Shown here in pieces: positions 3,185 through 34,452 of a stretch of DNA of 35,568 nt; position 1 is the stretch's first letter, and every line of letters starts with the position of its first letter. Origin of the DNA: a virus. The stretch lies in the IMG/VR virus record IMGVR_UViG_3300042516_000180, positions 1 through 35,568 of that record; one strand, written 5' to 3'. The notes below the pieces were generated by a model that was given only the letters and a program-made list of their open reading frames with translations, ran no database searches and was not told the origin of the DNA. The translations under genes were made by a program, and so were the position numbers.

Positions 3185-3971
3185 TTATCGTGGTGCGGCA
3201 ATTGAAACAGCTAAAGGCGATGTAGAGGCGGCTAGACTAGCTACTGCGGCTAACCGTGTAAATCAGGTTACGCCTTATGGTGAACTGCGCTATTCTACAA
3301 ACCCTGCTGATGTGGATCAATGGGGCAATCAGATGTGGACTGCTACGCAGACCCTATCCCCATCCCAGCAAAGACTCCTAGACTACCAAAATCAGACCAG
3401 CGAGGGGCTTGGTGAACTTACAGGCACAGGTCTTAACTATGTAAAGGGTATGTTGCAAGACCCGTTTACTACTACCAATTTGCCATCCCTTGGCATTAAT
3501 GCGGGTGAAACATATCAAGACGCTTATATGCGTAGGCTTCAGCCCCAAATTCAGCAGGGGCGTGACCAATTACAGCAACGCCTAGCTAATCAGGGTATTG
3601 ACATTGGTTCGGAAGCGTATGACCGTGCAATGATGCAACAGCAACAGCGTGAGAATGACCTGCTCTTAGGGGCTACTACACAAGGTTTTGGTACTGGTTT
3701 ATCTGCCCGTCAGCAAGGCTTTACCGAAGCGGCTTACCAGCGTAATGAACCACTCAATACCCTAAACGCTGTTCGTACTGGCGCACAGGTTACTAACCCT
3801 AGTTTTGTTAGCGTACCCCAACAGGCAACGACCAAGGGTGCTGACTTGCTGGGTGCGGCAACTGCCGAGGGTAACTACAATACCGCTTCTGCTAATGCTC
3901 AAGCCGCTCAAAACGCAGGTATGACTAGCGGGCTGGTATCGCTTGGTTCTACGGCAATGATGGCATTCTGA
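3147..3971 (+). CDS. Putative ejection (internal virion) protein, first of cluster
   Basis: 274 residues. A Gly/Pro-rich start (GKGGGSAPPPP) is followed by a Gln-rich, largely helical body (YMRRLQPQIQQGRDQLQQRL at about residues 127-146) and an Ala/Gly-rich tail. This matches small ejection proteins such as P22 gp7 and T7-type internal proteins, which leave the head with the DNA and help form a channel in the envelope. The ATG has a good AGGAGAAAG ribosome-binding site inside the previous gene. The gene opens a run of similar Gln/Ala-rich proteins (4693, 5063, 6277). The role is inferred from composition and context. Confidence 0.55.
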   Translation: MGKGGGSAPPPPDYRGAAIETAKGDVEAARLATAANRVNQVTPYGELRYSTNPADVDQWGNQMWTATQTLSPSQQRLLDYQNQTSEGLGELTGTGLNYVKGMLQDPFTTTNLPSLGINAGETYQDAYMRRLQPQIQQGRDQLQQRLANQGIDIGSEAYDRAMMQQQQRENDLLLGATTQGFGTGLSARQQGFTEAAYQRNEPLNTLNAVRTGAQVTNPSFVSVPQQATTKGADLLGAATAEGNYNTASANAQAAQNAGMTSGLVSLGSTAMMAF

Positions 3972-4696
3972 TGCAAGATTTCTTTGACCGCCACGAAAAG
4001 GTCGCTTTGATGTTTTCAGGCGGTAAGGATTCTATTGCTTGCTTGCACTTAATTAAGGATTATTTAGACAAAACAACGGTCGTATGGGTCAATACAGGGG
4101 CTAGTTTCCCTGAGATTGAAGACTTAATGGAAGAAACACTGGCAAAAGTACCGCATTTTCTAGAAATTAAGACAAATCAACCCCAATCCGTTAAGTCTAA
4201 AGGCTATCCCGTAGATGTAGTGCCTGTAAATTACACAGAATTAGGTCAAGCGGTCACAGGCATCAAGGATTTTAAGGTGCGTAGCTACTTTGAGTGCTGT
4301 TCCGAAAACTTTTGGATACCTTGTGATGCTGAAATCCGCAAGTTAGGCATTACGGGCGTGATTCGTGGTCAAAGAAACAGCGAAAAGCACCGTGCGCCTA
4401 TTCAGTCAGGTCATGTCGAGAACGGAATTGAGTATAACTTTCCGATAGAGGCATGGTCAGATAGCGAAGTTATTGACTATCTGCGTAGCAAGGATGTAGT
4501 AATAGACGAAAGGCTGTCAATGTCGCACTCCAGCCTAGATTGCTGGAATTGCACGGCATACATGGCAGAAAGCGCAGATCGTTTTAACTACATTAAAAAG
4601 AACCACCCAACAAAATACGAATCTATTGTCGAAATAGTAAAAAAAATCGATAATGTATTAACAGCAGAAACATCTATTTATAAAGGTTTCCTATGA
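3971..4696 (+). CDS. PAPS-reductase-family protein (adenine nucleotide alpha-hydrolase fold)
   Basis: 241 residues. The ATP-pyrophosphatase loop SGGKDS lies at residues 16-21. Family features follow: VVWVNTGASFPEIE at 37-50, and GVIRGQRNSEKHRAP around 129-143, which resembles the substrate-binding 'G-x-R-x-x-S/E-x-x-R' segment. Cysteines at 109-110 and the pair C191-x-x-C194 echo the CC...CxxC iron-sulphur ligands of APS reductases, with another Cys at 118. The C-terminal ECG(L)H catalytic tail of true CysH is missing. It starts 1 nt into the preceding stop and overlaps the next gene by 4 nt, so it is translationally coupled within the ejection cluster. It may move sulphur or a nucleotide; the substrate is unknown. 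Confidence 0.8.
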   Translation: MQDFFDRHEKVALMFSGGKDSIACLHLIKDYLDKTTVVWVNTGASFPEIEDLMEETLAKVPHFLEIKTNQPQSVKSKGYPVDVVPVNYTELGQAVTGIKDFKVRSYFECCSENFWIPCDAEIRKLGITGVIRGQRNSEKHRAPIQSGHVENGIEYNFPIEAWSDSEVIDYLRSKDVVIDERLSMSHSSLDCWNCTAYMAESADRFNYIKKNHPTKYESIVEIVKKIDNVLTAETSIYKGFL

Positions 4697-18921: not shown

Positions 18922-19135
18922 TGACCAGTTTGATTACGACAAAGAATGGGAAGGGATGCCTGAGTTTGTATCCGAAGACCTTAAGTCTATTGCGGCTGTC
19001 ACGGTTAACTTTTTGACCGTAGAAGATATGAACGCATTTAGCGAACTGGTCGGCAGACGCATTACTTTTCAGACCAAAAGCATATTGTTCCCCGTAAAAG
19101 AACCCGTAAAGAAAATCTACATCGATGAATCCTAA
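18905..19135 (+). CDS. Phage protein of the EWxGMPEF type
   Basis: 76 residues. DKEWEGMPEFVSEDLKSIAA at about 12-31, then VTVNFLTVEDMNAFSELVGR and a final SILFP motif. This short domain is seen as an appendage of phage nuclease, ParB-like or methylase proteins, and here it is separate. It may act as a protein-protein or DNA module next to the TAGT gene, with which it overlaps by 11 nt. Confidence 0.5.
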   Translation: MNDLFDDQFDYDKEWEGMPEFVSEDLKSIAAVTVNFLTVEDMNAFSELVGRRITFQTKSILFPVKEPVKKIYIDES

Positions 19136-19955
19136 ACACCCTGTCTACATTATTTCCAAGGGCAGATGGGAAAGCCGCTTAACTAGCAAGTCGCTAGAAA
19201 AGATGGGCGTACCGTACTACATCGCTGTAGAGCCGCAGGAATACGACAACTACGCAGAGGTTATTGACCCAGCCAAGATACTGACTTTGCCGTTTAGTAA
19301 TCATGGCTTTGGTTCTACCCCCGCCCGTAACTGGTGCTGGGATCACTCAATCCAAAACGGACACGCCTACCATTGGATGCTGGATGACAACATCAACGGC
19401 TTTGTACGGCTAAACCGTAATGAGCGTGTACCCGTAGCGTCAGGCACGATATTTAGGGCGGCAGAGGATTTTGTTGAGCGGTACGACAATGTAGCCCAAG
19501 CTGGCTTTGAATACCGATTCTTTGCTGGCGGTAATAGGCGCAAGAAGCCACCGTTTAGGCTAAACAACCGCATCTTTTCCTGTATGTTAATCCGCAATGA
19601 CATACCGTACCGCTGGAGAACCAAGTACAACGAAGACACCATCCTATCGCTGGATTGCTTAGAAGGCGGCTGGTGTACGATCATGTTCCATTGTTTTTTG
19701 CAAAACAAAGCCGCAACACAGACGGTCAAGGGCGGTAACTCAGCCGAGTTTTACGACCACGAAGGTACGCTACCCAAGTCACAGATGTTGGTAGATGAGT
19801 ACCCGCACAGGGCTAAATTGGTGTGGCGTTATGACCGCTGGCATCACGAAGTTAGCTACGATGGATTTGAAAAGAATATGTTGAAAAAGAAGGAAGGGAT
19901 AGTTATTCCCAAGGGCGTAAACAATTACGGAATGAAACTAGTGGAGATAACATGA
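19125..19955 (+). CDS. TAGT-type glycosyltransferase (DNA base modification)
   Basis: 276 residues. A GT-A-like pattern: YIISKGRWESRLTSKSLEKM (8-27), VEPQEYDNYAE, FGSTPARNW (62-70), MLDDNI (85-90, a DxD-like metal site), YNEDT (168-172) and a KGGN near residue 203. This is the signature of phage TET-associated glycosyltransferases, a family proposed to add sugars to modified bases. No TET/JBP oxygenase or thymidylate-type hydroxymethylase is encoded here, so the acceptor is unclear. It could act on a host-made or directly on another substrate. Confidence 0.7.
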   Translation: MNPKHPVYIISKGRWESRLTSKSLEKMGVPYYIAVEPQEYDNYAEVIDPAKILTLPFSNHGFGSTPARNWCWDHSIQNGHAYHWMLDDNINGFVRLNRNERVPVASGTIFRAAEDFVERYDNVAQAGFEYRFFAGGNRRKKPPFRLNNRIFSCMLIRNDIPYRWRTKYNEDTILSLDCLEGGWCTIMFHCFLQNKAATQTVKGGNSAEFYDHEGTLPKSQMLVDEYPHRAKLVWRYDRWHHEVSYDGFEKNMLKKKEGIVIPKGVNNYGMKLVEIT

Positions 19956-20281: not shown

Positions 20282-20445
20282 TTACCCTAACAGAAGAATT
20301 TTTAATCTTAAAAACTTTGACCCGTATGTATGACGATGCCCTTAAAAACAACAACGCCATGCTGATGATGGAGATAGCCGTAGACATTGCTGAATGCGCT
20401 GAAAAGCTAGAACAAGCCAGCGTGGATCATGCCAATGTATCGTAA
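20278..20445 (+). CDS. Small acidic helical protein (55 aa)
   Basis: ATG overlaps the previous stop (ATGA). It reads ITLTEEFLILKTLTRMYDDA, then acidic helices. Overlaps the zinc-protein gene by 17 nt. Function unknown. Confidence 0.45.
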   Translation: MITLTEEFLILKTLTRMYDDALKNNNAMLMMEIAVDIAECAEKLEQASVDHANVS

Positions 20446-20725
20446 TAAAAGTCTATTAGAAATTGTTAGAAGCTTTCCTTGCACTAACTGCGGGGCTGTC
20501 GATGGCACAGTAGTAGCCGCACATTCAAATCAACTTAGGGATGGTAAAGGTCGTGGAATCAAAGCGCATGATTACAGAATTGCCGCAATGTGTTACACCT
20601 GTCACGCAGAAATTGACCAAGGGGCAACACTCAGCAAAGCGGAGAGAGTGGAATGTTGGGAAGAAGCGCACAGAAAAACGATTGCCTTGTTATTTGAATC
20701 AGGGTTTTTATATACCAAGTTTTGA
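20429..20725 (+). CDS. DUF1364-type zinc/HNH-like protein
   Basis: 98 residues. C18-x-x-C21 and C55-x-x-C58-H59 with H32 form a zinc-binding set, arranged as in the phage DUF1364 (Ref/NinG-like nuclease related) family: VVAAHSNQLRDGKGRGIKAH, then AMCYTCHAEIDQGATLSKAE. It sits directly before RusA, as recombination genes often do. A second in-frame ATG (20435) could also start it. Confidence 0.7.
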   Translation: MPMYRNKSLLEIVRSFPCTNCGAVDGTVVAAHSNQLRDGKGRGIKAHDYRIAAMCYTCHAEIDQGATLSKAERVECWEEAHRKTIALLFESGFLYTKF

Positions 20726-33214: not shown

Positions 33215-33398
33215 ATGGCATTTGCTAACTCAGCAATTACCGATATTATCGCTACTACCATTCAAAGCCGTAGCGGTGTATTGGCCGACAACTTGACGCA
33301 GAACAATGCTGTTCTTCAGCGTCTAAACTCAAAAGGCAATGTACGGCCTTTCAGCGGGGGTAATGTAATCCTCGAGGAAATTATGTACAACGATCCGT
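33215..33398 (+). CDS. Major capsid protein, exon 1
   Basis: Codons 1-61 plus one base of codon 62. ATG 33215 follows AAAGGAAATATC. It encodes the coat N-terminus (SAITDIIATTIQSRSGVLAD ... GGNVILEEIMYNDP). Without splicing, translation would run into the intron and stop at 33422-33424 after 69 residues. The last base, U33398, pairs with G33408 in the intron P1 helix, the usual group I 5' splice mark. Confidence 0.8.
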
Positions 33399-33652
33399 TA
33401 ATTGGTGGCGGCCTTTTGCATTAAAACGCAAATTGAATAATTTTCTCTGATTGACTTGGAACTCCCGAAGGGGACAACAGGGCGGAAGCGATAAAAAGCA
33501 CCGTGAACGACTAAGTGAGAAAACACCTGCAAAGGTGGTGCGATAGTCTGAACTAGGATATAACTTAAGTTAGCAGAAGTCCTAGAGGGTAAGTCGAAGA
33601 ACATACCCCGCCATGAAAATGGTCAGTAAGCGAAAGCCGAAGTAACAGAATG
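33399..33652 (+). ncRNA. Group I intron, 254 nt, no ORF
   Basis: Core elements: P1 33395-33398 with 33408-33411 and extension (CCGU|UA..UGGCGG with U.G at the splice site), P2 33415-33419/33428-33432, P3 33441-33447/33517-33523 (TTTTCTC/GAGAAAA), P7 GACTA 33509-33513/TAGTC 33544-33548, P8 CACCT-GCAA-AGGTG 33524-33537 with GNRA loop, P9 CTAGGA 33553-33558/TCCTAG 33580-33585, P9.1 GGGTA 33587-33591/TACCC 33604-33608. It ends in G33652. No homing endonuclease is inside. Exact subgroup not assigned. Confidence 0.88.
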
Positions 33653-34452
33653 CAACAAATAACGCTAACAGCTATAGTGGCTATGAGGTGCTGAACATCA
33701 CCCCTGATAGCCCCATTTCTGCGGCACAGTTCAGCATTACTCAGTATGCTGACTCTGTAACCATGAGCGGTCTAGAAATGTTGCAAAACAGTTCTAAAGA
33801 AGCAATCATCGATCTGTTAGATGGTCGTATGCAAGTTTCTGAAGCCCGTTTATTGAACCGCATTTCGGGTGACATCTATGGTGACGGTACTGGTAATGGT
33901 GGTAAGAACATTACTGGATTGGCGGCCGCTGTTCCTGTTTCTAATACGACAGGCACATACGGTGGCATTAACCGTGCAAACTGGGCGTTTTGGCAGAACC
34001 AATCTTCCACAGGTGCTGACACATCTTTGGTGATTCAAGCCGCTATGACTTCTGCCGCAATCAAGTCTGTTCGTGGAACTGATAAGGTAGACCTCATTGT
34101 TTCAGGTAGCACCCTGTATCAACGCTATGTTGCATCACTTCAGGCTATTCAGCGTATCGCTGGCGTAGATGAAGGTGCGGCTGGCTTTGCATCCTTGAAG
34201 TTCTATGGTGGCGGTATGTCTGCCGATGTTGTACTCGGTGGCGGTATTGGCGCACAAGAGAATCCACTTTATATGTATCTCTTGAACACCAACTACATCT
34301 TCTTGCGCCCACACAAGGAGCGTAACTTTGTTCCTATCGGTGGTGAGCGTCAGTCGATTAACCAAGATGCGATTGTGAAGCTGTATGGCTGGGCCGGTAA
34401 CCTTACTTGCTCGAATGCTTCATTGCAAGGTATCTTGACTGGTACGGCTTAA
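33653..34452 (+). CDS. Major capsid protein, exon 2
   Basis: Joined to exon 1 it gives 984 nt, 327 residues plus stop, with the junction codon TCA (Ser): ...MYNDP-S-TNNANSYSGYEV... The rest (VTMSGLEMLQNSSKEAIIDL, GGMSADVVLGGGI and a C-terminal NLTCSNASLQGIL) is the body of the podophage coat protein with an HK97-like fold. A GTG at 33688 opens the frame artificially if the intron is ignored. Frame and homologous junction both support splicing. Confidence 0.8.

Follow-up and report, generated by a model that had tools for sequence, protein, structure and literature searches.

A small group I intron predicted in the major capsid gene of an uncultured phage and further intron sites in its relatives

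Introduction

Capsid-gene introns, phage genes with several introns and small phage introns are all known from earlier work. In mycobacteriophage LittleE, an intron of the major capsid gene was proven by RT-PCR and N-terminal sequencing (PMC3706429), and a capsid-gene intron of the lactococcal phage Tuc2009 is cited in the same report (PMC3706429). Several introns are found in the tape-measure gene of ICP1 (PMC10448857), and Jug phages contain abundant small introns of ~206 nt (PMC12363816).

The window analysed here is the whole of IMG/VR virus record IMGVR_UViG_3300042516_000180 (35,568 bases), which carries terminase, portal and head genes; its major head gene (phrog_9953) is interrupted. 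Like the LittleE intron, the insert lies in the major capsid gene, is preceded by U, ends in G, and exactly restores the coat protein when removed (PMC3706429). However, the LittleE intron measures 819 bp, contains a LAGLIDADG-like ORF and has been proven to splice, whereas the window intron is ORF-free, far shorter (254 nt) and predicted to splice. The Tuc2009 case, as far as it is described where cited, likewise places a group I intron in the gene of a phage capsid subunit, but the host and the gene family are different. An earlier sequence-only reading of the window had proposed that a group I intron splits the major capsid gene, a proposal now supported by exact boundaries, empty-site relatives and covariation; its statement that no coat-gene case was known was wrong, given LittleE and the cited Tuc2009 intron (PMC3706429). 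The ICP1 and Jug systems resemble the present one in that structural or essential genes hold several introns, which are small and mostly lack their own endonuclease, but those are large phages, whereas here the coat protein of ~35-kb, mostly freshwater phages is affected. The clustering of introns at many capsid sites is the more interesting part, and no prior report of a phage capsid gene with several intron sites was found in the literature searched, which was mostly non-subscription.

Exons and Splice Boundaries

The split point of the capsid gene lies at 33398|33399-33652|33653 (Table 1), and taking out the insert leaves a single in-frame protein of 327 aa. Both exons match one capsid family, phrog_9953, and are joined without loss of a residue according to the profile match and the translation. 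Relatives were collected by an exon-2 search of IMG/VR, which yielded 80 loci, 77 of them with a complete gene. No insert was present anywhere in the capsid gene in 65 of the 77, while inserts occupied the window's exact position (codon 61/62) in five, codon 72 in five and codon 53 in two; the search favours uninterrupted exon-2 matches in its ranking, so that genes with later introns are undercounted in these figures. Intronless relatives read ...NDP-x-TNN... across the insertion point, and it is this reading, together with the rule of a U before and a G at the end, that fixes the boundaries at U33398 and G33652. The exon coordinates and in-frame fusion given by the sequence-only reading were correct to the base, and the alignment of both exons to capsid homologues that it had suggested as a check places the junction where the intronless relatives have it.

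Table 1. Exons and intron elements of the split capsid gene (window positions).
Feature	Position	Strand	Description
Exon 1, major capsid gene	33215..33398	+	61 codons and first base (U) of codon 62; phrog_9953 positions 4-66, 1.1e-11; boundary set by intronless relatives
Exon 2, major capsid gene	33653..34452	+	phrog_9953 positions 74-328, 2.4e-72; 51% identity to BUCT555 MCP
Group I intron (predicted)	33399..33652	+	254 nt, without homing endonuclease ORF; terminal G is the last base
P1	33395..33411	+	5' exon CCGU (33395-33398) with internal guide GCGG (33408-33411); U.G at splice site
P3	33441..33523	+	UUUUCUC 33441-33447 with GAGAAAA 33517-33523, 7 bp; double changes in all 7 pairs, 60 introns
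P4 enclosing P5	33455..33479	+	P4 CUUG with C-AG side; P5 CUCCC-GAAG-GGGA; 60-intron alignment
P6 and P6a	33482..33504	+	CGG/CCG and inner GC/GC; across introns CGG/CCG, CGC/GCG, GGC/GCC, GCC/GGC
P7 (guanosine-binding helix)	33507..33549	+	A33507/U33549, bulged C33508, GACUA 33509-33513 with UAGUC 33544-33548
P8	33524..33537	+	CACCU-GCAA-AGGUG, GCAA loop; 4 pairs with double changes
P9 and two further 3' stems	33553..33623	+	P9 CUAGGA 33553-33558 with UCCUAG 33580-33585; 33587-33591/33604-33608; 33610-33623; single-sequence fold only

The insert begins with TAATTGG, preceded by U, and ends in ...CAGAATG. Without splicing, the upstream ORF runs over 33215-33424 (69 aa, stop at 33424) and the downstream ORF begins with GTG at 33688 (254 aa); standard gene calling does therefore break the gene in two, as had been anticipated. 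These two called ORFs are what could be said for a locus with no intron at all, expressed by translational bypass, as an intein or as two separately translated capsid pieces. An intein is excluded by the in-frame stops present within the insert. Two pieces are hard to reconcile with an exon 2 that has no start at its beginning, and initiation at GTG 33688 would lose a conserved stretch. The insert also shows group I covariation and matches a hold-out model (see below), and the same element is present in unrelated genes. With the empty sites, these observations already contradict any such non-intron expression, which we regard as extremely improbable.

Inserts at the same site were recovered from other assemblies at L007, L020, L063, L073, L079, L233 and L242, diverged in both exon and intron. 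The window is itself an IMG/VR contig, and an assembly or binning artefact could in principle place an unrelated RNA element inside a gene. This possibility is contradicted by the shared, diverged insertions, and the L007 contig, which comes from a different metagenome, has an insert identical to that of the window, which argues against an assembly error; an artefact thus has almost no likelihood.

Intron Structure and Covariation

All pairings named in the sequence-only reading (P1 with its U.G, P3, P7, P8 with its GCAA loop and the P9 stems) were found at the positions claimed. U33398, which pairs with the guide G, precedes the intron and G33652 ends it, in keeping with the group I rule. The P3/P7 pseudoknot core that is a criterion for group I introns was found in P3-P8 over 60 introns, with P9 taken from a single fold. 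A bulge in P7 is expected of the group I guanosine site, and the bulged base is C or A among the aligned introns; the outer P7 pair is A-U in 46 introns and G-C in 14, and the inner five pairs are invariant (n=60). A possible P10, between guide and 3' exon, would comprise C-G and A-U alone, next to the guide. Plain folding energy of the insert was not significant in a single-sequence fold (z -0.7), and the case for an intron is therefore carried by comparative evidence rather than by energy.

Core pattern scans gave at least 144 distinct cores, and 60 related introns, the window first, were aligned (alignment A1). Over 25 core pairs, the paired share of cells was 95.3%, against 76.0 (sd 0.7) for shuffles; sliding the partner reduced pairing to <=46%. 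Double changes were seen in 20 pairs, with a covariation score of 0.540 vs 0.183 in shuffles. None of 500 shuffles reached any of the five measures; the shuffles do not preserve relatedness, whereas the slid controls do. Covariation was strong in P3, P5, P6, P7 and P8, and the same core pairs were recovered by free mutual information. P4, which was added by RNAalifold, is invariant across the 60 introns or changes only by G/A.

Covariation extends into the exon. At codon 61, exon CCG-U is accompanied by guide GCGG in the window, L020, L063 and L079, and exon CCA-U by guide GUGG in L073, L233 and L242. This link between the exon wobble base and the guide is good evidence that the intron would be used where it sits.

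Covariance Model Searches

The Rfam model RF00028 (Intron_gpI) gave no match to the window at gathering or at E<=10, and none to ten other members of the window's intron lineage. At gathering, RF00028 also missed the proven td and nrdB introns of T4; because these were missed too, the silence of Rfam is no refutation. RF00028 is incomplete and phage introns are under-represented in it (2025 study, PMC11878797). The P3-P8 core architecture is common to RF00028 and the window's lineage, but the model does not match that lineage. RF00028 did match another, distinct intron, which interrupts this capsid gene at codon 72 in L053 and L035 (44 and 42 bits, E 6e-8 and 2e-7), the L053 score of 43.9 bits being under the curated cut-off of 50.

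A hold-out model was built from 49 introns (alignment A2), all from outside the window's capsid family. It identified window positions 33434-33554 with 126.8 bits and E=1.4e-26, against 13.9 bits for the next match in the window; the E-values are rough owing to a short calibration, and the bit gap is sound. The group I covariance-model search that had been suggested as a check thus came out positive with the family model and empty with Rfam, the latter being uninformative since the T4 introns were missed as well. To link the family with proven introns, the hold-out model was also run against those of T4; it gave no match, so that group I membership of the window intron rests on shared architecture, without a sequence link to a proven intron. 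Judging from the covariation, the hold-out match and the empty-site relatives, the predicted group I structure is more than chance. A family model of this kind would detect such introns.

Predicted Splicing

The insert is almost certainly a small group I ribozyme that would splice itself from late capsid mRNA, leaving the message for the 327-residue coat protein, and that belongs to a wider lineage from which it probably arrived laterally. Its anatomy, the exact empty sites, the covariation and the homology are direct observations, and the two transesterifications and their efficiency would follow established group I biochemistry. Guanosine bound in P7 would attack after U33398, itself held by P1; the freed end of exon 1 would then attack after G33652, and the exons would be joined into an mRNA encoding the coat protein.

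Were splicing lost, the group I intron would instead leave a split or dead capsid gene. Such a loss would be compatible with a metagenomic genome in which splicing of the intron is predicted from sequence, but the catalytic core, P1 and terminal G are intact and the invariant P7 residues are retained. Capsid codons of the window and L020 differ at 103 synonymous vs 15 nonsynonymous positions, and by this measure the carrier exons are under purifying selection, which also speaks against a dead gene, as does the recovery of identical or nearly identical carriers from several metagenomes. Loss of splicing is accordingly considered very unlikely, and an intron capable of splicing is the preferred reading.

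Intron Sites Across the Capsid Gene

Mapping with an intronless capsid protein (tblastn) placed inserts of ~230-280 nt at codons 53, 61, 72, 83-94 (L211), ~148, 277 (L091) and 308 of the capsid gene; the 3' side of the L091 insert lies beyond the contig end. Introns of ~695 nt were located at codon 27/28 in seven of 77 complete capsid genes (of 80) of a second clade. Loci with this longer intron are L125 (reverse strand), L287, L292, L304, L308, L314, L315 and L344, and the L125 intron encodes a GIY-YIG protein (Pfam PF01541, 2.4e-5). Among relatives the gene is therefore interrupted at about eight positions, codon 28 included. Several capsid genes contain two introns, and L124 has three (codons 53, 72 and 308). 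The capsid gene of L108 is like that of L124, its contig starting inside the first intron, and a second, diverged intron candidate was noted at capsid codon ~146 in L093:5819-5986 (17.7 bits).

The ORF list of 33399-33652 contains no endonuclease ORF, which bears out the sequence-only reading, and no endonuclease was found among the ~240-nt capsid introns examined. Tentatively, this phage group may have an intron hot spot in its capsid gene, with small endonuclease-free group I introns at about seven positions, up to three per gene, some perhaps directed by guide pairing. If so, it would offer a natural system for testing whether endonuclease-free introns spread at the RNA level (by reverse splicing) or by trans-homing, and how a virus copes with multiple splicing of its most abundant protein. 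An essential, highly expressed gene that holds several such introns is a setting in which to ask how they spread and how efficient splicing must be. In L246, a free-standing HNH-like gene lies directly after the stop of the intron-bearing MCP and is a possible trans-homing partner.

Lineage in Other Genes and Route of Spread

Core pattern scans located the same intron element in genes unrelated to the capsid gene; a scan of bacterial genomes gave mostly chance matches. The lineage was found in P22-type coat genes (ctn9Y15), in ribonucleotide reductases (Roseobacter phage CRP-118) and, going by names read from translations, in apparent tape-measure genes and an apparent N4gp56-like coat gene. 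In L134:1691-3206 (MW202674 ctn9Y15), GenBank divides the coat gene into two CDS, separated by an ORF that is likely spurious; the gap is a lineage intron. The reductase of L135:1976-2377 (OR420741 Roseobacter phage CRP-118) is annotated as two genes with an unannotated lineage core in between. With an intron lineage that the standard library misses, the annotations of many uncultured phages probably show fragmented coat, tape-measure and reductase genes.

An intron of this phage lineage, common to many virion and reductase genes, probably reached the capsid site laterally by recombination, perhaps aided by an endonuclease encoded elsewhere or through guide-directed reverse splicing; we infer this route more weakly than the splicing chemistry. 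Between the window and L020 the introns are 97.6% identical, the exons 85.7% and the fourfold sites 96/149. In the seven codon-61 carriers, similarity over exon-2 bases +7 to +51 exceeds what overall divergence would predict (residual 0.072 against an sd of 0.023 for random sets; 9/5000), under a null that ignores phylogeny, and no such excess was seen in the 5' exon. This ~50-nt tract of 3'-exon similarity is suggestive of lateral transfer in which flanking 3' sequence was co-converted. In the sublineage at codons 53, 148 and 277, exons end in NCCU and the guide is GGGG, a pattern that would fit guide-directed reverse splicing and homology-driven transfer alike.

The window's own HNH-like ORF (20429-20725), the only one of its kind among the ORFs checked, was considered as a trans-homing partner and rejected: it is YbcO/DUF968-like, at a distance of ~13 kb, and has the look of an ordinary nuclease of recombination. 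Elsewhere in the window, a PAPS-reductase-like gene (3971-4696; PF01507, 1.3e-17) lies amid structural genes, and a TET-associated glycosyltransferase domain at 19125-19955 (Pfam TAGT, 6.6e-42) suggests DNA base modification in this phage.
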